DNA of 38,822 nucleotides, taken from the NCBI GenBank assembly GCA_002709075.1, contig PAPV01000025.1, forward strand, positions 1 to 38,822, in the 5' to 3' direction. Source of the stretch: Rhodospirillaceae bacterium. Lineage in GTDB: Bacteria > Pseudomonadota > Alphaproteobacteria > MPNO01 > UBA2964. This document shows, piece after piece, positions 3,103-15,401 of the stretch (within the stretch, counting starts at the first letter, position 1; every line of letters starts with the position of its first letter). The notes beneath the pieces were generated by a model. That model was not told the DNA's origin. It saw only the letters and a list, made by a program, of their open reading frames with translations, and searched no databases. A program made the translations under genes and the position numbers.

Positions 3103-4584
3103 CTATTTACGTCCTCGCATTAGGTATCCATATTTTTTAGCAGATTTTTTTGATGTTTCAGGACTTGGAGCATTCGCCATTGGAAATTTATCTTTCCAGT
3201 GAAAGGGAATGCATGCATCGATCACAGCAACGGAGTGTGTTATGTCACCCTCTGCGCGTTTCTTGGGTGTCAATATTGGGTCGGCAGGGCTATCCCAAGC
3301 TCCGGTAATAAAATCGATTGACTCTTTTGGATCAGTTCGCACCATCATTGCCCAAATTAATTGGTCAAGCCGAGTAACATCCACATCGTCGTCAACAACA
3401 ATTACATATTTTGAGGCATAGGCCGCTGCACGGCACTGTGCAGCAATCTGTCCAGCTTGTCTTGCGTGACCAGGATAGCGCTGTTTTATCGATACTCCAT
3501 GGAGCATACGTGATCCACCAGTTTCATGGCACCAAACCTGGTGTACATCAGGAATTCCTGCATCAAGCATATTCTGTTTTAGGTTTGCTGACCGCATTAC
3601 TGCTCTGTAGCGTGCTAATTCATCGGGTCCTTGACCCATAGGAGGGACGCCGAGCAGAATTGGGTCATTGCGATGGTAGATTGCCTCAACTGTAAGATAG
3701 GAGCGTTCTTCAATACCTCCTGCATAGTGTCCGGTCCATTCCCCAAAAGGTCCTTCTTCAAGTTTCTTTTCATGGTAAACATAACCCTCTAAAACAATCT
3801 CCGCGTTAGATGGAAATGGTAAGCCGGTTATTTTTCCTTTAACAAGTTTCATTGCCTTCCCGCGCATGCCGCCAACAACATCCATTTCAAAAGTTCCAAA
3901 TGGTGCTTCGGTACCACCAAAGTAAAAGCTGATCGGATCGCCACCAAGAATCATGCAAACAGGCATTTTTTCTTTTCTTTCTTCGTATTTTTGACGATGG
4001 ATCCATCCATGATGTCCACGCGCAGTCAGCAGACCCACTTTGTCCTTGTCGAATACTTGGGCCCTATAAGCTCCTGCATTCAGCCATCCATCCTCGGGAT
4101 CTTTTGTGATTGAGTAGGTTCCGGTGCCAATATATCTACCCCCGTCATTTTCATGCCAAATTGGTGCCGGAAACTTCGTTACGTCTACCTCTTCATTCAG
4201 GAGAATATTCTCAAAAATTGGACCATCCTGCACAATTTCATGGGGTATAATCTTCTGTTCGGCAAGATACTCCTCACGATAAGCATTGGATAATTCCCAC
4301 TTATTTAAATGATCAGGAAAACCAAGAGTCATATTACGCCTTTTTCCAGCAAACATATTCATTAATAAGCGAAAACCTTTTGGGCACCCCTTTACATCCT
4401 CAAAAACTACGCAAGGACCATTTTCCTCACGGAGCACTGCCTCAGCAGCTAAACCAATGTCTTCCTGCCAGCTAGCACCTTTTACGTATTCAACTTCACC
4501 AAGGCTATCGGCTAGACTTAGCCATTCACGTAGGTCGTCATATGCAACCTTTGCCCTAATATTGCTTCCTGATGCCGTCCTCAT
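3103..4584 (-). CDS. UbiD-family prFMN-dependent (de)carboxylase
   Basis: 493-residue UbiD-family enzyme, normally a reversible decarboxylase of aromatic or alpha,beta-unsaturated acids that uses prenylated FMN made by UbiX. The family catalytic set is visible: the Asn-x4-Arg pair in LNAGAYRAQ (counterpart of Fdc1 N168/R173), the metal-binding Glu region in NAEIVLEGYVY, and both Glu residues of EGPFGEWTGHY (counterparts of E277/E282). It is therefore probably active. Length fits UbiD/VdcC-type proteins (about 470-510). It is the last gene of a minus-strand operon, starting 5 bases after the PhyH stop. No UbiX lies in the window, so cofactor must come from elsewhere. It is unlikely to be ubiquinone UbiD itself, given the catabolic neighbours and a second homologue at 13726-15126. 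Confidence 0.9.
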   Translation of the reverse strand: MRTASGSNIRAKVAYDDLREWLSLADSLGEVEYVKGASWQEDIGLAAEAVLREENGPCVVFEDVKGCPKGFRLLMNMFAGKRRNMTLGFPDHLNKWELSNAYREEYLAEQKIIPHEIVQDGPIFENILLNEEVDVTKFPAPIWHENDGGRYIGTGTYSITKDPEDGWLNAGAYRAQVFDKDKVGLLTARGHHGWIHRQKYEERKEKMPVCMILGGDPISFYFGGTEAPFGTFEMDVVGGMRGKAMKLVKGKITGLPFPSNAEIVLEGYVYHEKKLEEGPFGEWTGHYAGGIEERSYLTVEAIYHRNDPILLGVPPMGQGPDELARYRAVMRSANLKQNMLDAGIPDVHQVWCHETGGSRMLHGVSIKQRYPGHARQAGQIAAQCRAAAYASKYVIVVDDDVDVTRLDQLIWAMMVRTDPKESIDFITGAWDSPADPILTPKKRAEGDITHSVAVIDACIPFHWKDKFPMANAPSPETSKKSAKKYGYLMRGRK

Positions 4585-4589
4585 ACCAG

Positions 4590-5456
4590 TTACTCCAGTG
4601 TATAATTGTTAGTTTTATTCGCGCGATCAAATCTTTCAATTGTCTGATTACCCATCTCTCTTACTTTGGCCCTGTAAAGTGCTACTGCTTTGTGATATCG
4701 ATCCATAGTGTTCTGAGAATCATTATGCTCTGGGGCTTTTTCATGATAGAAATTTCTAAATAGATCTTTTCCACGTACTAAAAGGGCACTGGTTTTGACC
4801 TTTCCACTTTGCTGAAGGTGAGTGGGGTGATAAATCAATGTCATACCTAATCTTCGTTCTTTTGAATTATTTTGTTCTGATGAGTGAACTAAAAAGGCGT
4901 GGTGTATAGAGGCTTGTCCAGGCTTTAATTGCACTGGAACCTTTTTTGAATTGGATACATCATAATCGACTGTCTGCCCGCTAGATAGTAAGTTGCCATT
5001 CTCTATATCGGGTGAACCTAAAGGTAATTCTCCCAGTTTATGAGTACCTGGAAGAAACTGCATACAACCACTTTCAATGGTTACTGTAGAAAGTGCGATC
5101 CAGACTGTTACAACTTTGCAAGGAGTGTGTCCAAAATATGTATTATCTTGGTGCCAACTAACATAAGAACCATCTCCACCATCCTTACACCACATTGTGT
5201 TGTGATATAACATTAGATTTGGACCAAGAAGATCCTCTACTGGGTCTAAAACGGCGTCGCTTGTTGCAAGGTCGTGTACCCAAGGAAATCGTAAATAAAA
5301 TTTTGTTTGGCCTGAACCAGTGAGTTTTCCATCTGCTTGTGTGCGCTCAAGTTTTTCTCTAAATGCTGATGCGTCATCTTCGGACATTATGGTTACGGGA
5401 AATATGAACCCATCCGTTTCAAATTGTTTGACTTGGTTTTTGCTAAGAACCTTCAT
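4590..5456 (-). CDS. Phytanoyl-CoA dioxygenase (PhyH) family Fe(II)/2-oxoglutarate oxygenase
   Basis: 288-residue member of the PhyH family, non-heme iron oxygenases that hydroxylate a substrate while decarboxylating 2-oxoglutarate. The facial triad can be read: His and Asp in VSWHQDNTYFGH (about residues 121-123) and the distal His in HHAFLVHSSEQ, followed by Arg in ERRLGMTLIYHP, the likely 2-oxoglutarate anchor. The start overlaps the end of the alpha/beta hydrolase gene by 14 bases, and GAAAGAG lies just upstream as a ribosome site, so the two are translationally linked. The UbiD gene follows after 5 bases. The substrate is unknown; bacterial PhyH proteins act on very varied small molecules. 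Confidence 0.87.
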   Translation of the reverse strand: MKVLSKNQVKQFETDGFIFPVTIMSEDDASAFREKLERTQADGKLTGSGQTKFYLRFPWVHDLATSDAVLDPVEDLLGPNLMLYHNTMWCKDGGDGSYVSWHQDNTYFGHTPCKVVTVWIALSTVTIESGCMQFLPGTHKLGELPLGSPDIENGNLLSSGQTVDYDVSNSKKVPVQLKPGQASIHHAFLVHSSEQNNSKERRLGMTLIYHPTHLQQSGKVKTSALLVRGKDLFRNFYHEKAPEHNDSQNTMDRYHKAVALYRAKVREMGNQTIERFDRANKTNNYTLE

Positions 5457-6240
5457 TATACTCTTTCGATTGTGAGTCCAAAAATATTTTTATCGTTTCA
5501 TTAAATTTTTTGGGATTGTCAATATTAGATAGATGGCCTGCGTTTGGTATTTCTATTATACTCGAAGTATAAATACTATCGCGTATGTATTCGCTTTCAG
5601 ACATTGGTGTGACATCATCAGAGTCTCCAATTATAATAAGCGTTGGTCTCTTGATGTTAGAGAGATCAGCACGACCATCGTATGTGAGAACTGTTTGGAG
5701 TGTGTCAACATACGCCTCTGATGGACATTTAGAAATTTCGAAAGCTAATTCATCAAGTTTTTCTATTGGTGTTGTCGGCATCAATCTATCCCCAGCATAT
5801 TGACTTCCAAATTCATGCATTGATAAATAGGCAACTGCCTCTCGTGTCGCACAAATGTGGTCTTCAACCCCAGCAGGAGTACGGGCGTAAGAGTCGGCAA
5901 TAATAAAGGATATTCCAATATCTGGCCATTTTGAATTAAAATGGAGTAATATTAAGCCTCCCATAGACAGGCCAATTATATGGCATCTTTTTATGTCAAG
6001 ATGATCCAATACAGCTTTATGATCAGAGATAAAATCTTTCAAGGTCAACGACCCATTGCATGAACTATTTCCATGACCTCTGCAATCCGGAGCAATACAT
6101 CGATACGAATTTTTTAAAACAGCAATTTGGTCACGAAATAGATACGAATTTGTTCCAAGGCTGTGAAAAAATAAAACGGGTGGGCCATCCCCTACATCCT
6201 CAAAATATATAGACTCGCCGTTAGCTTTGATAACAGGCAT
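5443..6240 (-). CDS. Alpha/beta hydrolase (enol-lactonase/esterase-like)
   Basis: 265-residue alpha/beta-hydrolase-fold protein. Catalytic triad candidates are Ser in the nucleophile elbow GLSMGG (about residue 93), Asp in IIIGDSDDVTP (about 207) and His in PNAGHLSNID (about 236); the oxyanion-side motif is FFHSLGTNS. Overall it resembles 3-oxoadipate enol-lactonases and C-C/ester hydrolases of aromatic pathways, but single members cannot be assigned by sequence. AGGAGC lies 8-9 bases before ATG 6240. It is cotranscribed with the downstream PhyH gene (14-base overlap) and probably with the TauD genes upstream, although a 258-base gap separates it from them. Confidence 0.88.
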   Translation of the reverse strand: MPVIKANGESIYFEDVGDGPPVLFFHSLGTNSYLFRDQIAVLKNSYRCIAPDCRGHGNSSCNGSLTLKDFISDHKAVLDHLDIKRCHIIGLSMGGLILLHFNSKWPDIGISFIIADSYARTPAGVEDHICATREAVAYLSMHEFGSQYAGDRLMPTTPIEKLDELAFEISKCPSEAYVDTLQTVLTYDGRADLSNIKRPTLIIIGDSDDVTPMSESEYIRDSIYTSSIIEIPNAGHLSNIDNPKKFNETIKIFLDSQSKEYNEGS

Positions 6241-6498: not shown

Positions 6499-7368
6499 TT
6501 ATGCAACCGCATCAGCAGAAATCATTGGACCACCTTCAACAGTGCAACGACGCAGTACTCGTCGCTGTTCCGAGGGAAAAGTTTTTCTTGCATGAATTGA
6601 GCAACGGTTATCCCACATCAAAAGATCACCTTTCTGCCAACTATGTTCGTAAACAACACTACGATTTTCAGAAATTTCATAAAGTTGTTCAAGTATTTCA
6701 AAACTTTCTGTTGGTTCTAAACCTTCTATGCTCGCAGAAATGAGTCGGCTGACATACAGCGCTGTGCGTTTGGTCTCTGGGTGAAGAATGCAAATGGGTT
6801 GCCATTGATGCTGGATATTCTCAAGTCCTTTTTCACTTAAGTTTACCCGTCCTCTTAAAGCAAAATCATATGCCTGAAGTACTTTCTTATTTATAATTTT
6901 TGTTTTTAGCTTAGATGGTATTTGTTCATAGGCTAAATACATATTTGATAACTGTGTTTCACCTCCATGAGAGGGTATTTCCAGTCCATGTAGAAATGTT
7001 GCTTTATGGGGTTCCGGACGATAACTCATATCGTGGTGCCACCACATTTCACCGTCAGGCAATGATCCGGTATAGTTTCCTGCCTTATCACGATCATTGC
7101 TGACCATCATTATTGTACCGTCGTAACCATGCTTATCTTCATTGCGCCGTTTTTTTGGAGTGGCCCGTTCACCAACCTTTCCAAAAATTGATGCAACATT
7201 TATTTGTTCATCTTTTGTAAGGTTCTGGTTACGAAAAACTAGGCAAATATTATCTAACCAAGCTTGATAGAGTGTTTTCTTATCATCCTCACTTATTGGA
7301 TTGCACAAATTAATGCCAATTACTTCTGCTCCTAAGGGTGCATCTATTTTTCTGATTTCTAGGCTCAT
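6499..7368 (-). CDS. TauD/TfdA-family Fe(II)/2-oxoglutarate dioxygenase, copy 1
   Basis: 289-residue TauD/TfdA dioxygenase. Iron ligands are the His-x-Asp of MWWHHDMSYRPEPHK (about residues 107-109) and the distal His in WDNRCSIHARKTFP, with the 2-oxoglutarate-binding Arg in QRRVLRRCTVEGG. The start is placed at ATG 7368, where the protein aligns with its neighbour's N-terminus (MSLEIRKIDAPLGAEVIGI); an upstream Met at 7482 would overlap the previous gene by 100 bases. It follows the second copy after 14 bases. The two proteins share long blocks (GSLPDGEM, HHDM, PEPHK, KRTALYV) and are clearly tandem paralogues. The family includes taurine, 2,4-D and alkyl sulfate dioxygenases; the substrate here is unknown. 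Confidence 0.9.
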   Translation of the reverse strand: MSLEIRKIDAPLGAEVIGINLCNPISEDDKKTLYQAWLDNICLVFRNQNLTKDEQINVASIFGKVGERATPKKRRNEDKHGYDGTIMMVSNDRDKAGNYTGSLPDGEMWWHHDMSYRPEPHKATFLHGLEIPSHGGETQLSNMYLAYEQIPSKLKTKIINKKVLQAYDFALRGRVNLSEKGLENIQHQWQPICILHPETKRTALYVSRLISASIEGLEPTESFEILEQLYEISENRSVVYEHSWQKGDLLMWDNRCSIHARKTFPSEQRRVLRRCTVEGGPMISADAVA

Positions 7369-7382
7369 AGCTTTTCTCTTGT

Positions 7383-8246
7383 TTATGCCGAATTTTTTGC
7401 AGCGATCATTTTTCCTCCTGCGGTTGTACAGCGCCGCATTACTCGTCTTTCTTCCGAAGGAAAATCTGTTCTCGCATGACATGAAGCGAAATTATCCCAC
7501 ATAATTAAATCGCCAACACTCCATGTGTGCTCAAAAATATTGTCAGGAGCTTCTGAAATTTGATGAAGTTTATTTAAAATTTCATCGCTCTCCTCTCTAT
7601 CAAACCCATCTATTATTGCAGTCATTAATCTGTTTACATAAAGCGCTGTGCGTTTGGTGTCGGGGTGCTCGATAAATATAGGTTGTGATCTGTGATGAAT
7701 TCCTTCAAAACCTTTTTTTAGATCTGGTGTGCTGGTCAAACCATAATCATACACCTGCACGGCAGTTTTTTCTTTCAGAAGAAGCTTTAGTGAGTCTGGA
7801 AGCCTATCGAATGCTTGATACATATTCGTGAATTGTGTATTTCCACCTATTGAAGGTACTTCAATTGCATATAGGTATGTCCCCTTGTGGGGTTCGGGCA
7901 TATAACACATATCATGATGAAAATACATTTCTCCGTCAGGCAAAGATCCAATATATTCTCCTTTTTCATTTTTAAGATTTGATACCATCATTATGCTCGG
8001 ATTAAATTCAACGCCCTCAGGCCTGGCTTTTGCGGTTCTTGAACGTGTGCCGAGTCTTCCAAAATTGGAGGCGAATGAGAGTTGTGCCTTTTGAGTTAAA
8101 TTTTGATCGGGATAAATCAGAACAATGTGCTCGTGCCAGGCATCGAGTATCTGATTTTTTATTTTGGGATCAATCGGATCATTTAGGTCAATGCCGTGGA
8201 CATATGCGCCTAATGCTGCCCCCGTTGGCTCTATTGAGATATCCAT
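7383..8246 (-). CDS. TauD/TfdA-family Fe(II)/2-oxoglutarate dioxygenase, copy 2
   Basis: 287-residue dioxygenase, first gene of the minus-strand operon that runs to 3103. Triad: His-x-Asp in MYFHHDMCYMPEPHK, distal His in WDNFASCHARTDFP, and Arg in ERRVMRRCTTAGG. It is a paralogue of the next gene but well diverged, so the pair may act on two successive intermediates, or on two positions of one substrate, rather than being a recent redundant copy. The start at ATG 8246 gives the normal N-terminus (MDISIEPTGAALGAYVHGID). The 38-base gap to the oppositely oriented gene at 8285 must hold both promoters or parts of them. Confidence 0.9.
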   Translation of the reverse strand: MDISIEPTGAALGAYVHGIDLNDPIDPKIKNQILDAWHEHIVLIYPDQNLTQKAQLSFASNFGRLGTRSRTAKARPEGVEFNPSIMMVSNLKNEKGEYIGSLPDGEMYFHHDMCYMPEPHKGTYLYAIEVPSIGGNTQFTNMYQAFDRLPDSLKLLLKEKTAVQVYDYGLTSTPDLKKGFEGIHHRSQPIFIEHPDTKRTALYVNRLMTAIIDGFDREESDEILNKLHQISEAPDNIFEHTWSVGDLIMWDNFASCHARTDFPSEERRVMRRCTTAGGKMIAAKNSA

Positions 8247-8284: not shown

Positions 8285-9052
8285 ATGCTAGAGTATAAAC
8301 AAATGGTCGAATTCGGAAAACCATATCCTAAAAAGATCTTACAACGCTTATTTTACTTGCAAATGAGTTGTGGCTCAGATCTTAATACTAACGATGCATT
8401 ACAGGAAATGTTAGATTTTTTGTGTATGGCGAGAGGAATAAAGCCAGTGTTTGTTGCAGGTCGCGGCATTGACAATCCATGTTGGGTCTCGGGTATTATA
8501 CAACTCGCACAAGAGTCAGGTTTTTATTTAGAACATGGAAATTTTTGGGATGCCTACGAGTGGCCAGAAGACATTCCTACTTGGTATGTAAAAGACACCT
8601 TGGCCCTCTTGGAACCCTTCAACGCAGTATACATCACTAGGATTAAAAAGATAAAAAATGAGGTAAAAGAAATTTGTTCCCGAAATGGGAAAATCACCAT
8701 GGAAGATGAAGCTCGCCTTCTTGCTTATCCAAAATGCTGTGTGCAGTCACATTATCTCAGATTGGAAGGCTGGTATCGAGCTATACTATCAATTCTTGAT
8801 CGCCATTGTGACGGAAACGAAGTACTTATGCAAAAACTGTTTGCTTCTGAAAAAATACCGCCACCTGAAACGGACGAAGAAAAATTAGTTTTCTCCTCTG
8901 CTTACAATGTGTTTCCAGCAAAATTTGGTAGTTGGAATATGTGTGCAAAATGTCGCAGCATGAAACATTCGCCGTCGGCTCTCCAAATAAAAAAGAACTA
9001 CAATGTCGGCATGTTGATCGGTTCTAAACTGATAGAAATGTTAACAGCTTAA
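8285..9052 (+). CDS. Hypothetical protein with Cys-rich motifs
   Basis: 255-residue soluble protein that I do not recognise. Distinctive points are the motif YPKCCVQSHYLR near residue 149 and WNMCAKCRSMKHSP near residue 220, four cysteines that could bind a metal or an Fe-S cluster together. The YP-x-CC-V element recalls archaeal/bacterial DUF483-type proteins, but that is memory of a pattern, not a match I can test. The start could be ATG 8285 or ATG 8303. It is divergent from the TauD operon and converges on the methyltransferase with only 8 bases between stops. Its place inside the catabolic block suggests a linked role, which remains unproven. Confidence 0.7.
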   Translation: MLEYKQMVEFGKPYPKKILQRLFYLQMSCGSDLNTNDALQEMLDFLCMARGIKPVFVAGRGIDNPCWVSGIIQLAQESGFYLEHGNFWDAYEWPEDIPTWYVKDTLALLEPFNAVYITRIKKIKNEVKEICSRNGKITMEDEARLLAYPKCCVQSHYLRLEGWYRAILSILDRHCDGNEVLMQKLFASEKIPPPETDEEKLVFSSAYNVFPAKFGSWNMCAKCRSMKHSPSALQIKKNYNVGMLIGSKLIEMLTA

Positions 9053-9060
9053 TTAATTTT

Positions 9061-9849
9061 TTAACGACGCCTACCAAAGACAAAATTTGCTGTGGTAAGA
9101 ATCCTTACTCCTTCATTCTCTGCGTTTGACTGGAGCTCTTTTGTTACATACTCGATAACTGTTTCAAGATTATCGTTTTTTAATTTTTGAAAGTCCGATT
9201 CAATAAATGGATCGCTATTTGCAAAAGTTTCCACAAAAAAACGGGATGATAAAAATTTAGTTTCTAAAGTTTTTCTTACAACAGAGACATCCTTGAATCC
9301 ATAGGCCGCTATGCAATCTCCGATTGCTATTGGATCACTTTGTGCAAAAAATTGTTTTAGGTTGGTTGCGTCAACGTTGCATGTTTCTAGCCCTTTAATT
9401 AGTGCATTGTGACCAGGGCACAATTCCTGACGACTAAAAATATTCAGCACCATTCGTCCTCCCGGTTTTAATACTCTATGGCATTCCCGCAGCGCCAAGT
9501 CTCGATTGAACAAAAACTGATATATTTGACTTCCAATCACTGCATCAAACTCTTCGTCCACAAATGGTAGATTTGAAAGTTCAGTTTCAAGCCATTTTAC
9601 AGAACTCTGTGGATCAAGCTTTTGCGCTTTTAAAAGAAGTTTGGCTTCGCAATCGACTCCATAAACAGAACCATTAGCTCCTGATAATTTAGCCGCATAA
9701 CGCGCAGCTTCTCCCGTGCCACAGCCAATATCAAGTATGCTCTCATTTTTTTGTACCTGAGTATGTTTAACCATCTTTTCCGACCAAGGGCCATAGAAAT
9801 TCGAAAATACAATATTTTGGCAGGATTCTGCGGACTCTAAATCGAACAT
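9061..9849 (-). CDS. Class I SAM-dependent methyltransferase
   Basis: 262-residue methyltransferase of the UbiE/type-11 kind. Motif I is ILDIGCGTGEAARYA (about residues 38-52), the acidic residue that binds the SAM ribose is in VYGVDCEAK, and the later motif LKPGGRMVLNIFSR is present. The methyl acceptor cannot be told from sequence; small molecules or quinone-like compounds are common for this group. It is the last gene of the minus-strand run that begins with UbiD at 15126, 72 bases after the DHDPS-like gene. In this setting O-methylation of a phenolic intermediate, or of a toxic by-product, is a reasonable guess. Confidence 0.88.
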   Translation of the reverse strand: MFDLESAESCQNIVFSNFYGPWSEKMVKHTQVQKNESILDIGCGTGEAARYAAKLSGANGSVYGVDCEAKLLLKAQKLDPQSSVKWLETELSNLPFVDEEFDAVIGSQIYQFLFNRDLALRECHRVLKPGGRMVLNIFSRQELCPGHNALIKGLETCNVDATNLKQFFAQSDPIAIGDCIAAYGFKDVSVVRKTLETKFLSSRFFVETFANSDPFIESDFQKLKNDNLETVIEYVTKELQSNAENEGVRILTTANFVFGRRR

Positions 9850-9921: not shown

Positions 9922-10848
9922 TCAGACCATGTATTTTTTAATACGGGCTTTGTGCTCTTCTTCGAAAAGATAGGTTTTTTTGAGAAGGTCTTTCAACTCT
10001 ATGAGTTGGCTCCCTTCCACAGCTTTAAAAGGCGGATAAGGCTTACCTATTGGTAGCCCAATAATTTCCATTGCCGCTTTGAGTGCAGGGGTTAGGCCAA
10101 AATTCATCCAACATGCTGGGAAGAGACTGAATTGTTTCTGAAGCCTGCATGCTTCTTCATATCTTTTATCTTTAAACGCAATGATTAGAGCGTTTGCGAT
10201 ATAGGCAATTGGCGGGGGCATTGTTGCGCCGGATCCCCCAATAGATATCGACGCTAAAAGCATTTGCACAGTAGTAAAATAATGCGCATAGCCAGAATTA
10301 TCGATTTCTTCGATTAATCGGGCACATCTGGATAGATCGCGCGAACTCTCTTTGACCCATTTAATTTGGTTCATTTTAGCAAGTTCAATTGTCCAAAGTG
10401 GGCTCACTTCACAACCAGGACCAGGATTAAGGTACAGCATAATGGGAAGATCTATCTCAATTGCAATAGCATCGTAATAAGCCATAAGATCTTCTAATGT
10501 AGGCGTACCTCCAAAGGGTCGGAGCGGAGCAAGAATCTGCACCCCTGCAGCTCCAAGTTTTTGCGCTTTGCAGGAGAGCTTTATTGCAATATCAACATTA
10601 GAATGAGAAACCCCAACGATAACAGGAACACGATTGTTTACGAACTCGATAGTCCTTCTGATTAATTCACACCGTGATTCGTATGTAAGGTATTGGTATT
10701 CTGTTGCTTCCACACCAGCAGCCGACACCATTGCAGCGTTACATTCTTCAACAATGTAGTCTACTTCACGTTCAAGGGTGGAATAATCAACTGAACGATC
10801 ATCTAAAAAAGGCGTCAGCGGAGGAACAATTAGGCCTGGTAAATTCAT
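9922..10848 (-). CDS. DHDPS/NAL-family lyase (dihydrodipicolinate synthase-like), copy 1
   Basis: 308-residue (beta/alpha)8 Schiff-base lyase of the DapA family. The Schiff-base Lys is in IKWVKESSRDLS and the catalytic Tyr in LPIMLYLNPGPG. ATG 10848 is chosen because AGAGA stands 7 bases upstream and the protein then begins with the family pattern MNLPGLIVPPLTPF; Met codons at 10863 and 10890 lack ribosome sites. It probably does not serve lysine synthesis: two divergent copies lie together among catabolic genes. Members of this family include aldolases of aromatic degradation (for example hydroxybenzylidenepyruvate hydratase-aldolases) and sugar-acid lyases, usually using or releasing pyruvate. 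Confidence 0.87.
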   Translation of the reverse strand: MNLPGLIVPPLTPFLDDRSVDYSTLEREVDYIVEECNAAMVSAAGVEATEYQYLTYESRCELIRRTIEFVNNRVPVIVGVSHSNVDIAIKLSCKAQKLGAAGVQILAPLRPFGGTPTLEDLMAYYDAIAIEIDLPIMLYLNPGPGCEVSPLWTIELAKMNQIKWVKESSRDLSRCARLIEEIDNSGYAHYFTTVQMLLASISIGGSGATMPPPIAYIANALIIAFKDKRYEEACRLQKQFSLFPACWMNFGLTPALKAAMEIIGLPIGKPYPPFKAVEGSQLIELKDLLKKTYLFEEEHKARIKKYMV

Positions 10849-10923
10849 GATAGTTTCTCTCATCAATTTTATTCTATTTTTGCGTTGCAAATTGATTCTT
10901 CATTAGTGGGTATCTACGACCAT

Positions 10924-10943
10924 AATTTCTGTATCTAGAAATT
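10924..10943. repeat. Inverted repeat between the two DHDPS-like genes
   Basis: AATTTCT (10924-10930) and AGAAATT (10937-10943) form perfect 7-base arms around 6 bases. The repeat sits in the gap of over 100 bases separating the two lyase genes, upstream of the 10848 gene on the minus strand. It could be an operator or a small RNA hairpin. AT-rich repeats of this size also arise by chance. Confidence 0.25.
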
Positions 10944-10991
10944 TTACTCAAGAGCTTTGTTATCACTTAAAGAGTAATGTTTGTGGCAAGA

Positions 10992-11864
10992 TTAAATTAA
11001 TTCGGCCCTGGATAAAACTTTGTCAAGCCGCGCCCGCAGTTTCTTATCTGCAGCAACCATCGGAAGACGATGTTCATTATGAGGAATAATTCCGATCCGT
11101 TTCATCATGTATTTCATCGGAATGGGGTTTGTATCATAGAAAACTGCCTGATTGATTTCAAAGAGTTCGTAGTGAATTCTTTTAGCTAATTTTAAGTTCC
11201 CCTTCCAAATAGAATCACATAATTTAACAAGTTTTTGTGGCATTAAATTTCCAACTGCGTTCATTAGTCCACATGCTCCAACAGACATCATAGGATATGA
11301 CAAATCTTCCAAACCCACGAATATTCGGAAATCAGACCCGAAATGTTCAATGCACTTGGAAACAAAGCCAATATCATCAACGGCGTGTTTCATACCTACA
11401 AAATTTGGACAATTTTTACTGATTTGATCAAGTGTTTCCAAAGAAACACTGACCGCAGCTCGGCCAGGTATATGATAAATCATCCATGGAAGCGTGATGT
11501 GTTTGCCAACTTCTGTATAGTAATTTACTAGGCCGCGTTGTGGGGGGCGGATATAATAAGGGGTTACAATCAGAAGTGCGTCAGCGCCAGATCTCTCAGC
11601 ATGAGTGGATAGTGCAATTGTTTCTTCAAGACTTTGCGAACCGGTAGCTGCAACTACAGGTATTTTTTTGTTGGCAGCTTCCACAGCGACATCTACACAT
11701 TTATTGCGTTCATTAACAGTCAAAGTAGATGGCTCAGAAGTGGTGCCAGTAACTAGAACACCATGTGAACCATTCTTAATTTGGAATTCAACTAATTCAG
11801 CATAAACCTTATAATCCACCGTATTTTTGTAAAAAGGTGTTATGAGGGGCGGAATAGAACCCAT
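10992..11864 (-). CDS. DHDPS/NAL-family lyase (dihydrodipicolinate synthase-like), copy 2
   Basis: 290-residue Schiff-base lyase. It carries the substrate loop VTGTTSEPSTLT, catalytic Tyr in WMIYHIPGRAA and Schiff-base Lys in FVGMKHAVDD, so it should be active. It is closer to true DapA than the neighbouring copy (GTTSE loop and YxIPGR), yet its location after a bicupin dioxygenase and before another lyase argues for a catabolic aldolase or decarboxylating lyase. ATG 11864 gives the family N-terminus MGSIPPLITPF; an in-frame ATG at 11891 directly abuts the cupin stop and could be used through coupled translation, adding nine residues. Neither has a strong ribosome site. Confidence 0.87.
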   Translation of the reverse strand: MGSIPPLITPFYKNTVDYKVYAELVEFQIKNGSHGVLVTGTTSEPSTLTVNERNKCVDVAVEAANKKIPVVAATGSQSLEETIALSTHAERSGADALLIVTPYYIRPPQRGLVNYYTEVGKHITLPWMIYHIPGRAAVSVSLETLDQISKNCPNFVGMKHAVDDIGFVSKCIEHFGSDFRIFVGLEDLSYPMMSVGACGLMNAVGNLMPQKLVKLCDSIWKGNLKLAKRIHYELFEINQAVFYDTNPIPMKYMMKRIGIIPHNEHRLPMVAADKKLRARLDKVLSRAELI

Positions 11865-11891
11865 TAGTGTTTCTGTTTTTAGACATAGCAT

Positions 11892-13013
11892 TTAGGTCGC
11901 AACTTTTGATCTATTTGTATTGAAGCCGGTTTCTGCACCCAAAACACTCCAAGGCTCCTTCAAATCCTCTTGCCAAAGAAGAGACTCCATAACGATATTT
12001 AGTGGTTGGTCCTGTATTGTTAGCTCATATACAGGTTCATTCCCCGTCGAAGCGTGGTTATGTATTCCCCAACCTGGTGCAGTCAATAGTAAATCCCCCG
12101 ATTGCCACTCGTACACCTTACCTTCCACTGTTGATCTACCTTGTCCACCAAAGATGTAATTCATTGCTGCAGAAACATGTCTATGCGGTTTATCAACTAT
12201 TCCTGGTGGTCTAACAGTAATGGTTGCAAAAAAATTTGGCGTGGTGCCGTTTGTGCGTCCCGTCATCGGATTCCACAAAAGATACAGTCTGCGACCGACA
12301 TAATCCGACCCTAGTGCTGTAAGTTTGTCGAGTTCTTTTTTTACTTTTTTCCATGGCCAATGAAGCGCTTTTGACTCGACAGACTCCGGCGAAACGAGGA
12401 TTTCATAGGGCATCAACCAAGCACCTTGTTTAGTTAGTTGAAAAGTACCGTACGGGCTTTTCCTTTTGGAATCATCACAACCATCCGTATTCGGGTCCGA
12501 GGTTTTTTCAACATCCGTTGTATTATCGGATGGATTTTCTTCGACAATATGTACATTCATTTTCTCAAGAAGAGGTGCGTTAGTATAAGTCAATCTTGCT
12601 TGAATATCATCCGTATGATTTGCATGAACGTATGTCTGCATAGACGGGAAATTCCACAAATCATATTGTTCAAAATCAATACGTTGTCCTCCAACGATAG
12701 AATGACCTTCGCCTTCTATGCAGAAATTTACCTGGGTGGAGTTATGCCGAATAGGCGCTGTTTGTTCGCCAGGGTTTAACACCTCTAAAATTGGCCGAAT
12801 GCCGGGAGCAAGTCCGAGGCCAGGCCCTAATTTGTGGGAGTCTGGATGTACAATCCACGATTGGCGGCGACCATTATTGGGTGTGGGTAATTTCGAAAGT
12901 CTCTCTATTTCAGCCCGAAAATCGGCACCCTTTATTATAGCAGGCTCCCAAAGTTCAGGCTGTGGTTCAGTGAGACCAGAACGATCCAGAAAGATTGCCT
13001 TTTGTTCAGACAT
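11892..13013 (-). CDS. Bicupin, gentisate 1,2-dioxygenase-like
   Basis: 373-residue two-cupin protein resembling gentisate and related ring-cleaving dioxygenases. The C-terminal cupin has the metal-ligand pattern in KPHRHVSAAMNYIFGG and GWGIHNHAS. The N-terminal cupin has PIRHNSTQVNFCIEGEG and a later His-rich turn (VHANHTDD). Between them lies an unusual acidic, low-complexity linker (about residues 175-205, rich in Asp, Asn, Thr). The start is ATG 13013, with a clear GGAG 7 bases upstream; the longer frame to 13064 has no support. Ring cleavage of a hydroxylated aromatic acid is the family role, but the exact substrate is open. It is followed immediately by the DHDPS-like gene and preceded by the MarR gene, so autoregulated control of this unit is likely. 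Confidence 0.83.
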   Translation of the reverse strand: MSEQKAIFLDRSGLTEPQPELWEPAIIKGADFRAEIERLSKLPTPNNGRRQSWIVHPDSHKLGPGLGLAPGIRPILEVLNPGEQTAPIRHNSTQVNFCIEGEGHSIVGGQRIDFEQYDLWNFPSMQTYVHANHTDDIQARLTYTNAPLLEKMNVHIVEENPSDNTTDVEKTSDPNTDGCDDSKRKSPYGTFQLTKQGAWLMPYEILVSPESVESKALHWPWKKVKKELDKLTALGSDYVGRRLYLLWNPMTGRTNGTTPNFFATITVRPPGIVDKPHRHVSAAMNYIFGGQGRSTVEGKVYEWQSGDLLLTAPGWGIHNHASTGNEPVYELTIQDQPLNIVMESLLWQEDLKEPWSVLGAETGFNTNRSKVAT

Positions 13014-13220
13014 GTTACAACTCCGCCGAAAAAATAGGTTTAAAACAAAAAATAAACCGTACAATTTTGTAAGACCCTAATAATTAATCTTACCCTCAGT
13101 CAAGTGAGGCTAGGGTTAAATTACATTTGTTAAGCATCAACACCCTCGGGAGCCTTAAAAAGCTGATGCCTAAAAAAACGTTTTATTGTGCAAAGCGGGC
13201 GGAGGGTAAACCATCATATT

Positions 13221-13232
13221 TGTTCTAGAACA
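13221..13232. promoter_or_regulatory. Perfect 12-base palindrome upstream of the cupin gene, possible operator
   Basis: TGTTCTAGAACA is a perfect palindrome located between the MarR stop (13244) and the cupin start (13013), in a 230-base gap that probably holds the cupin promoter on the minus strand. MarR proteins bind AT-rich palindromes of about this size near the genes they control. About nine perfect 12-base palindromes are expected by chance in a window this long, so position is the only real support. The same gap holds an inverted GCATCA/TGATGC pair near 13134-13178. Confidence 0.3.
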
Positions 13233-13243
13233 TTGTTGTTTGT

Positions 13244-13726
13244 CTAACTAGAATTTACGTCCGCATCCAGATTTGTTTTCATTGCACGCATAAGCCGTTT
13301 AACCTCTTTTAAATCATGATCAGAAAAACCATTGGTCGCTATCTCATTGATACCAATTGCCATATTGAGAAGTTCATTTTTTAGTTCCCTTCCTTTTTGA
13401 GTTGGGAAAACATTTATGGTACGACGGTCTTTTTTGTTTCTTATTCTTTGAACTAAACCATTTTTTTCAAGTAGGCGAAGAGCACTCGCGGTCGTGGGTT
13501 CGGTGGTCCCTACTCGTTTACTTAATTGGCGTTGGCTTAAACCCTCCTCGACCCATAGAGCCCGCATGAAATAATATTGGCCTAACGTCATTCGATAAAC
13601 GGACAATCTTTGGCGCAATGCATTACCCACAGCGATATTAGTTTCGCGTACAATAAATCCGGGACTTTCGTTTGGATCTAACCAAATATCGTCCATTCTT
13701 TTAGTTGCCGTAATTGTTTCTTTCAC
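13244..13726 (-). CDS. MarR-family transcriptional regulator
   Basis: 160-residue MarR/SlyA-type winged-helix repressor. The DNA-binding part is visible at about residues 60-125: the recognition helix region LSQRQLSKRVGTTEPTTASA, then LEKNGLVQRIRNKKDRR, the wing with its conserved Asp-Arg pair, flanked by dimerisation helices. MarR proteins commonly sense small aromatic acids, which fits the neighbours. The start is GTG at 13726, whose first base is the last base of the UbiD stop TAG, so translation is coupled; an internal ATG at 13696 is the alternative. Being cotranscribed with UbiD and just upstream of the cupin gene, it is the obvious candidate local regulator of the whole block. Confidence 0.9.
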   Translation of the reverse strand: MKETITATKRMDDIWLDPNESPGFIVRETNIAVGNALRQRLSVYRMTLGQYYFMRALWVEEGLSQRQLSKRVGTTEPTTASALRLLEKNGLVQRIRNKKDRRTINVFPTQKGRELKNELLNMAIGINEIATNGFSDHDLKEVKRLMRAMKTNLDADVNSS

Positions 13727-15126
13727 TAGATGAAATCCTCCAGACTGACGCTGTCGAAGTTCTTCGGCATAGCTTGTAAGAATTTTGACCGCTCTTCAGG
13801 ATGACTAGTCGGTGGACGGGTAGCATCAATAAGTGTTTTAGTCCCAATGCGGTACATTGCGCTCATTCCGGGTACAATATCTGAAACATTATCAAGTGAC
13901 CAAATACGGGTGTTAGGTATCTTTATTACATCTACCTCTGCATGCACGCGAGTGGTCATTGACCAGAATACCTGCCGCAGGTCAGACGGGTCAACATCCT
14001 CATCAACTGCAATAGCTAGCTTGGGATGCATATACGGGCTAGAGAGCGCTGCCATAAGAGCCGTTTTTGCTTGTCCTTTAACTTTGGGTCTTAGTTTAAG
14101 GACAACAGCCATTAGCCCGGAAACACCAAGACAGCGAATGTCGATTATATCCATCCCACCTTCAACCCTTGATAAATGTTCATGAAGTGCTGCTTCTATA
14201 CAAGTCCCAGTAATTGACTGGGGATCACCCATTGGAGCCCCAGAGTGCATACCATAAAATATTGGTTTTTTTCGGTGTGTGATACACGAGAGTTCAAATA
14301 TTTCGGTTGAACCCTCCATCGCATATCCTCCTGTAACCTCCCCAAAGGGTCCTTCAGGGGTCATGGCATCTGGAAGAATTTTCCCCTCTAAAATAATCTC
14401 CGCTTCGGCTGGAACCTTGATATCGCAGGTCTCACATTTTACCAGTTTTATTGGCTCGTTGATCAACCCACCAGCTATAGCCAGTTCGTCGGTTCCAAAA
14501 TTTGTGGTGAAACCTGAAGCAAAAAGAATCGCAGGGTGTGTTCCAATAACAATTGCTACAGGCATTGCCTCTCCTCGTTTTTGGTATTTGCGATAAATAC
14601 GTTGAGTATGTCGGGGGCAAATTAGAAAACCAGTGCGATCTGAAGCTAAAATTTGTTGTCTATGATATGAGATGTTTCTTTTTCCTGTTTCCGGGTCTGT
14701 TACAACTGCCATTCCTGAAGCTATATATGGGCTTGGGTCTAACTCGGAGGTCCACATGGCCGGAATACTATTTAGATTTGCTTGTTTTTCTTTAAGCACA
14801 ATCTCTTTTACGGGAGCATCAGTATGCTTGACGTAGATAGGATCTATTGGGGTTTGGATCCGCGCAATCAATTGTTGCAACAAATTATCTTCGGAGACGT
14901 TTAACCCAAGTGCCCACTTTCGTCTGTCTGTAACAATCTGACTGCATAGTTGCCAGTTGGGAAACCCTTTGAGATTTGTAAAAAGACTGGATTTTCCTAA
15001 CTGATCATAGGTTTTCCAACCGATTGCCGACACATTTTCCGCCGGATCAGTCTCGCTCTCAATGCGGATTAGTTCCCCTTGTTGCTCAAGCTTACTTATG
15101 TGCTCACGAAGCGATTGGCCGCTCAT
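13726..15126 (-). CDS. UbiD-family prFMN-dependent (de)carboxylase, second copy
   Basis: 466-residue UbiD-family enzyme. The Asn-x4-Arg pair is in RNISYHRQQ, the metal-side Glu in AEIILEGKI, and both Glu of EGPFGEVTGGYA are present, so it should be catalytically competent. It is clearly not a duplicate of the 3103-4584 gene, sharing little beyond the motifs. ATG 15126 is chosen because the protein then begins MSGQSLREHISKLEQQGEL, the standard family opening; the frame extends to 15225 but that extension is Cys/Ile-rich and unlike UbiD. It is the first gene of the minus-strand run, coupled to marR. The UbiD plus bicupin dioxygenase arrangement suggests decarboxylation followed or preceded by ring cleavage. 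Confidence 0.89.
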   Translation of the reverse strand: MSGQSLREHISKLEQQGELIRIESETDPAENVSAIGWKTYDQLGKSSLFTNLKGFPNWQLCSQIVTDRRKWALGLNVSEDNLLQQLIARIQTPIDPIYVKHTDAPVKEIVLKEKQANLNSIPAMWTSELDPSPYIASGMAVVTDPETGKRNISYHRQQILASDRTGFLICPRHTQRIYRKYQKRGEAMPVAIVIGTHPAILFASGFTTNFGTDELAIAGGLINEPIKLVKCETCDIKVPAEAEIILEGKILPDAMTPEGPFGEVTGGYAMEGSTEIFELSCITHRKKPIFYGMHSGAPMGDPQSITGTCIEAALHEHLSRVEGGMDIIDIRCLGVSGLMAVVLKLRPKVKGQAKTALMAALSSPYMHPKLAIAVDEDVDPSDLRQVFWSMTTRVHAEVDVIKIPNTRIWSLDNVSDIVPGMSAMYRIGTKTLIDATRPPTSHPEERSKFLQAMPKNFDSVSLEDFI

Positions 15127-15401
15127 AATCTTTTCAATTCCGTTAAAGTTACTGTATATTGTCTTCAGTTGGCCAATTGCGCAACAGATTCGGCCTAAAT
15201 TACTAATTCTTATTCTGAGTGGCAATAAAATGATAGTGAATTAAACTTAATTTTCACCAATTTTCCACGACTTATGTTTGGTCAACACGTGCAAAAACGC
15301 AAATCAGGTGTAAAGTGGCAGGACCTCTTCATTGAGAGTTCAACTATGCTTTGCTATAAGTCGAAAAATTATTCGATCGATAATATGCTGTAGTAATATT
15401 A
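15127..15401. promoter_or_regulatory. Divergent intergenic region between UbiD and aminotransferase
   Basis: A 275-base stretch separating two divergently transcribed genes, so it must hold the promoters of both the UbiD-marR unit (minus) and the aminotransferase (plus). It is AT-rich with the small palindrome TCGATCGA at 15374-15381. No RNA gene and no further convincing frame are visible; I could not pick promoter boxes with confidence. Confidence 0.45.

Follow-up and report, generated by a model that had tools for sequence, protein, structure and literature searches.

UbiD enzymes carboxylate or decarboxylate aromatic and unsaturated acids, and a number of them cannot be isolated in an active form. 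Two proteins dedicated to their maturation offer the closest described systems. LpdD, a small protein whose gene neighbours one of the UbiD family, is a chaperone that binds prFMNH2 and activates UbiD enzymes; it is similar to the proteasome chaperone Pba3/4 and possesses a site that binds Mn via two histidines and an aspartate (PMC10865409). Its authors anticipate that UbiD maturation is considerably diverse and that more factors exist (PMC10865409). PhdC is an HpaC-like flavin reductase acting as a prFMN maturase that activates a UbiD enzyme, and YclD is related to it (PMC13040415). In a separate study, what ties DUF483-like proteins to radical-SAM modules and to DNA modification is their gene context alone (PMC11437467). 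Among the partial texts returned by our literature search, no publication ties the four-cysteine protein described below to UbiD.

The window analyzed here is a stretch of 38,822 nucleotides from a Rhodospirillaceae bacterium (contig PAPV01000025.1). The gene of interest, at 8285..9052 on the plus strand, runs from ATG to TAA and encodes a 255-residue DUF483-like protein, as judged from the ORF, its homologues and their alignment. The first-pass annotation had regarded it as a full-length, protein-like gene, and this was borne out: a homologue from the same genus is 57% identical and homologues are present in 26 of the 27 genomes of the home order, so that the ORF is more than a chance one. 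It lies in a catabolic block whose other genes listed here are on the minus strand. On one side are two divergent TauD/TfdA-family dioxygenase genes (6499..8246, Pfam), a PhyH-family dioxygenase and an alpha/beta hydrolase gene (4590..6240, Pfam) and the second UbiD-family gene of the block (3103..4584, Pfam and NCBIfam), which does not belong to the UbiD-T branch defined below. On the other side are a convergent SAM-dependent methyltransferase gene (9061..9849, Pfam), two DapA-family genes with a cupin (gentisate-dioxygenase-like) and a MarR regulator gene (9922..13726, Pfam and NCBIfam) and finally UbiD2 (13726..15225), the UbiD-T copy proposed as partner, which was identified by Pfam, by a score over the NCBIfam TIGR00148 cut-off and by co-occurrence. 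The divergence from the TauD-family genes, with 38 bp between the facing starts, and the 8 bp separating the stop from that of the methyltransferase gene are as first described. The strong selection on gene packing that had been read from the latter spacing is, however, a weak inference, since intergenic gaps in the same block span -100 to 258 bp as called and a gap of 8 bp is thus not special. The TauD-family gene 6499-7482, which is called from 7482, has a 100-bp overlap with its neighbour; a start about 38 codons inward would abolish it.

The four cysteines occur in two pairs, within a YPKCC motif (8726..8740, plus strand, residues 148-152) and a CAKC motif (8942..8953, plus strand, residues 220-223). 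We aligned 26 proteins and then added three homologues from another order and one from a viral contig. A further carrier, G012 (locus L036), was omitted from the alignments and from the UbiD tree because its sequence contains unknown bases. C151, C152, C220 and C223 are unchanged in all 30 rows, including the viral one. The window protein has nine cysteines, and exactly the four paired ones are invariant among the 26 proteins, the remaining five being kept in 1 to 11 rows. P149 in the YPxCC region is likewise invariant in 30/30, as are D44, K53, P54, G85, W88, W100, E142, A143, L146 and V153, while H156 is found in 26 of 30 once the four more distant homologues have joined the alignment. The first-pass annotation had proposed that the paired cysteines could bind a metal and had staked this idea on their conservation in homologues; they are conserved and the idea survives. 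A candidate metal site at these positions is plausible. The other adverse outcome named there, a clear match to a known unrelated enzyme, did not emerge from Pfam, profile or fold searches.

DUF483 (PF04467) is the sole Pfam match of the window protein up to E 1, which leaves no flavin reductase domain at this threshold. It covers residues 135-156, that is, the YPxCC region, and scores 15 bits where the family threshold is 25 bits; 20 of the 26 family members match DUF483 at E 1 or better, with a best E value of 0.0013. The YPxCC motif is common to the window protein and to DUF483, including the protein of the Thermus phage Cumys annotated as DUF483 (PMC11437467), which itself scores below the Pfam cut-off. 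When the family profile was compared with the Cumys protein by hhalign, 110 columns ending at YPxCC were aligned (E 1.4e-4, probability 53%). Unlike the window protein, the Cumys protein lacks the CxxC pair and is encoded next to a radical-SAM gene. We thus describe the window protein, from its sequence, as DUF483-like, DUF483 being its nearest Pfam family, below cut-off and without formal membership. No usable match to it came from NCBIfam, PHROGs or PADLOC, and no significant one from a profile search against solved chains.

The AlphaFold2 model of the window protein is confident and globular (mean pLDDT 92.5, pTM 0.87). Foldseek found no match under E 0.001 in the PDB and BFVD. The top row of the VIA-align list, well above all others, is 2guk, a Porphyromonas gingivalis protein of unknown function that is 12% identical to the window protein. 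It aligns over residues 23-161 (Z 7.5, rmsd 3.9, 105/111 residues), and with the domain modelled alone it gives Z 6.9 and rmsd 5.0 over 104 residues. With Z under 8, this resemblance between a model and a structure is below the level at which a shared fold could be claimed and may reflect a common arrangement only. 2guk may be a member of DUF1893; a literature search for that family returned no paper, and nothing here is based on this possibility. NleE, which appears in the VIA-align lists with Z 3.8 and 4.2, was taken as noise.

In the home order, the gene is present in one copy per carrier, the single miss being G026, a genome 67% complete; all 11 genomes with a completeness of 90% or more and a contamination of 5% or less have it. 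A single-protein query against public genome contigs returned no relatives, whereas a profile query of the same contigs returned 24 loci, all titled as alphaproteobacterial, Rhodospirillales, Defluviicoccus or 'Proteobacteria' MAGs. The plasmids searched gave no match to the protein, and among annotated phages no hit was better than E 2. When 299 genomes of the phylum were searched for DUF483, a single match was obtained, below the cut-off.

Among the genes of the block, the genome-wide co-occurrence test covered the four-cysteine gene and UbiD-T. By UbiD-T, a label coined here, we mean one branch of the UbiD family of prFMN-dependent decarboxylases, defined as sequences at least 50% identical to UbiD2 of the window. 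Their scores all exceed 500 bits, apart from that of a fragment in G010, and the threshold was drawn after the gap in scores had been seen. In the class sample, where, as in the phylum sample, scoring was limited to the best 4 to 8 candidates of each genome, 7 of 385 genomes have a convincing copy of the gene and the same 7 have UbiD-T, the best UbiD2 score in the other genomes of the class being 226 bits. Beyond the home order, convincing copies occur in this sample in G086 and G612 alone; a match in G571 (E 8.8e-4, 68 profile positions within a 1,274-codon frame) was considered a chance one and dropped. In the phylum sample, both genes are found in 1 of 319 genomes, that of the window. In the order of G612, the 3 genomes of 23 that carry the gene are also the ones with UbiD-T, and they make up one whole genus; in the order of G086, 1 genome of 43 carries the gene and is again the one with UbiD-T. 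The next-best UbiD2 scores there, 315 and 310 bits respectively, come from genomes that lack the gene. In the latter order, two genomes that lack the gene encode a UbiD of 39-40% identity, which argues against the partnership; they lie outside UbiD-T by virtue of a cut-off set after the gap had been seen.

In the home order itself, UbiD-T is found in 25 of the 27 genomes, against 26 for the gene. G026 lacks both; G011, which is 71% complete, has the gene, and its contig begins inside the cupin gene, next to the position of UbiD-T in its relatives. If genomes are treated as independent, the chance of such a coincidence is 4e-15 (7 of 385), and if genera are, 8e-11 (5 of 277), both values being far too strong because the genomes are related; within the order of G612 it is 6e-4 (3 of 23), ignoring that all three genomes belong to one genus. 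About three independent lineages stand behind the co-occurrence.

The loci outside the home order bring the two genes together. In all four carriers, G086, G612, G721 and G722, the gene is immediately 5' of UbiD-T and on the same strand, with predicted stop-to-start gaps of 3, 5, 5 and 7 bp, respectively; the downstream gene is assigned to UbiD by Pfam in G086 and G612. When 34 other genes of the home-order loci were used as queries, UbiD2 alone was recognized in all four loci, and one amidase-type match was also found in G086. The gene is thus linked to a UbiD-family gene, as one would expect for a role of the LpdD or PhdC kind. In G612 (L076:2712-7297), the pair is found beside genes resembling those for an NrtR-type regulator and nadA, nadB and nadC, an assignment made from sequence likeness. 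Outside family f1 of the home order, on the other hand, 11 of 13 carriers have the gene on one contig and UbiD-T on another, which counts against the partnership, as do two viral contexts. The viral homologue has no UbiD among the eight neighbouring ORFs scanned, the part covered being 10.7 kb of a 191-kb contig, and in Cumys the DUF483 gene is beside a radical-SAM gene. Weighing these points, we consider it likely that the gene is partnered with UbiD-T, and the protein, found almost only in bacteria with UbiD-T, is probably a helper of this enzyme.

The two viral loci deserve a few words in their own right. The viral homologue (L074:4947-10380) is near PTH2, R2K ATP-grasp and RlaP-type genes, a neighbourhood that hints at tRNA or RNA repair. 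A search of viral contigs with the Cumys protein as query returned no relatives. In Cumys (L083:9446-12676), the DUF483 and radical-SAM genes have as a neighbour the gene for a 343-residue protein consisting mostly of H-x-D repeats, with tail and baseplate genes alongside. This protein could be a substrate of the radical-SAM module, as an alternative to the DNA-modification role put forward by the authors.

In a quick tree of UbiD sequences, UbiD-T is on a long stem and comprises three home-order groups and a fourth one formed by the sequences of G086 and the G612 genus. The EGPxGE motif is present in 48/48 UbiD-T sequences and the [HY]RxQ motif in 41/48; we take these regions to hold catalytic residues of UbiD. 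A degenerate second UbiD of G086 (L038:11646-13052), encoded after UbiD-T, lacks EGPxGE and falls inside UbiD-T on a very long branch, a placement that we distrust. The UbiD-T protein of G612 (L076:23-1852) contains an extra UbiD_C-like stretch, and the same second match is seen in G721 and G722. It may be that UbiD-T acts together with a non-catalytic UbiD subunit.

Several other roles have to be weighed against that of a UbiD-T helper. A metal-dependent enzyme that catalyzes the reaction preceding or following that of UbiD-T in an aromatic-acid pathway would also be co-inherited with UbiD-T. Such an enzyme would agree with the globular model, in which the invariant D44, K53, W88, W100 and E142 could line an active site, and with the position of the gene within a catabolic block in the home order. 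However, no enzyme family was recognized with Pfam, NCBIfam or the profile search against solved chains, and the 25 UbiD-T genomes of the home order have one to three UbiD-T genes for a single copy of the gene, which fits a single helper acting in trans better than a pathway enzyme. The window genome also carries, on another contig, a second UbiD-T (L108:10197-11735) in a different catabolic locus that lacks the four-cysteine gene. By their sequences, its neighbours resemble genes for an FAD-dependent hydroxylase, a GMC-type oxidoreductase, an enoyl-CoA hydratase and an aldehyde dehydrogenase, with a further UbiD. These other catabolic neighbours and the missing gene favour a trans helper while leaving room for a pathway catalyst, which we regard as rather unlikely.

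The remaining proposals draw on the neighbours of the gene in the home order. The first-pass annotation had suggested that the protein may handle a cofactor or iron for the oxygenases, here the TauD, PhyH and cupin ones. This would be in keeping with the four invariant cysteines and with the TauD-family genes that share the retrieved locus with it in 24 of the 26 home-order carriers, the exceptions being G022, with a 7.3-kb contig, and G019; in family f1, the gene is divergent from TauD-family genes in 13 of 13 genomes, and the fullest f1 locus, G005, has alpha/beta hydrolase, PhyH, methyltransferase, DapA-family, cupin, MarR, UbiD and tripartite-transporter genes too. Yet the four carriers outside the home order adjoin UbiD-T, and TauD, PhyH or cupin genes were not recognized in their flanks, which span 9.6 kb to either side in G086, 1.9 plus 17 kb in G612, 9.5 plus 3.0 kb in G722 and 7.7 plus 0.2 kb in G721. 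The suggestion does not stand as worded and appears improbable to us; its "cofactor handling" part may be right after all, but for a prFMN-dependent UbiD enzyme. In 11 of the 13 home-order carriers outside f1, an MFS gene comes immediately before the gene. This MFS gene is preceded by an HlyD gene in 10 of the 11, the G022 contig ending there, and in 5 of the 11 loci a MarR gene is ahead of the pair. One could therefore think of a component or regulator of an HlyD/MFS efflux system. We give this very little credit: no transporter gene of this kind was recognized in any of the 13 loci of f1 or of the four beyond the home order, all of which keep the gene, and since the MFS/HlyD pair is not recognized in f1 loci that retain the gene, the transporter is not its constant partner.

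We propose that the four-cysteine protein is a trans-acting accessory factor for UbiD-T, involved in maturation or insertion of the cofactor or serving as a subunit, and we would give this proposal about an even chance. A specific role in handling prFMN is a more tentative part of it. The protein would dock on apo-UbiD-T and aid the loading or the oxidative maturation of the prenylated flavin; alternatively, it could be a weakly bound subunit of UbiD-T. The CC...CxxC set would form either a structural zinc site or a site of redox-active cysteines. Physical contact with UbiD-T, prFMN handling and metal binding are what we infer; what the sequences show is the gene and its conservation, its co-occurrence with UbiD-T, the same-strand pair outside the home order and the single copy per carrier next to usually one to three UbiD-T genes.

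Seen beside the described factors, the protein resembles LpdD and PhdC by analogy, in genomic logic and not in sequence. Like LpdD, it would serve UbiD and has a putative metal site, but instead of histidines and an aspartate it has four invariant cysteines, and its predicted fold has no clear relative in our searches. Like PhdC, it would be dedicated to UbiD-family enzymes, but it gives no flavin reductase match. It is conceivable, though we hold it doubtful, that the protein represents a UbiD maturation factor of a third kind, unrelated to the other two: DUF483-like, with a four-cysteine site, serving a whole branch in trans and obligatory for its activity. If this is true, such an obligatory factor would help explain why some UbiD enzymes are not activated by UbiX alone. 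The four-cysteine protein is a concrete candidate maturation factor tied to one branch of UbiD, and it provides a functional lead for DUF483-like proteins.
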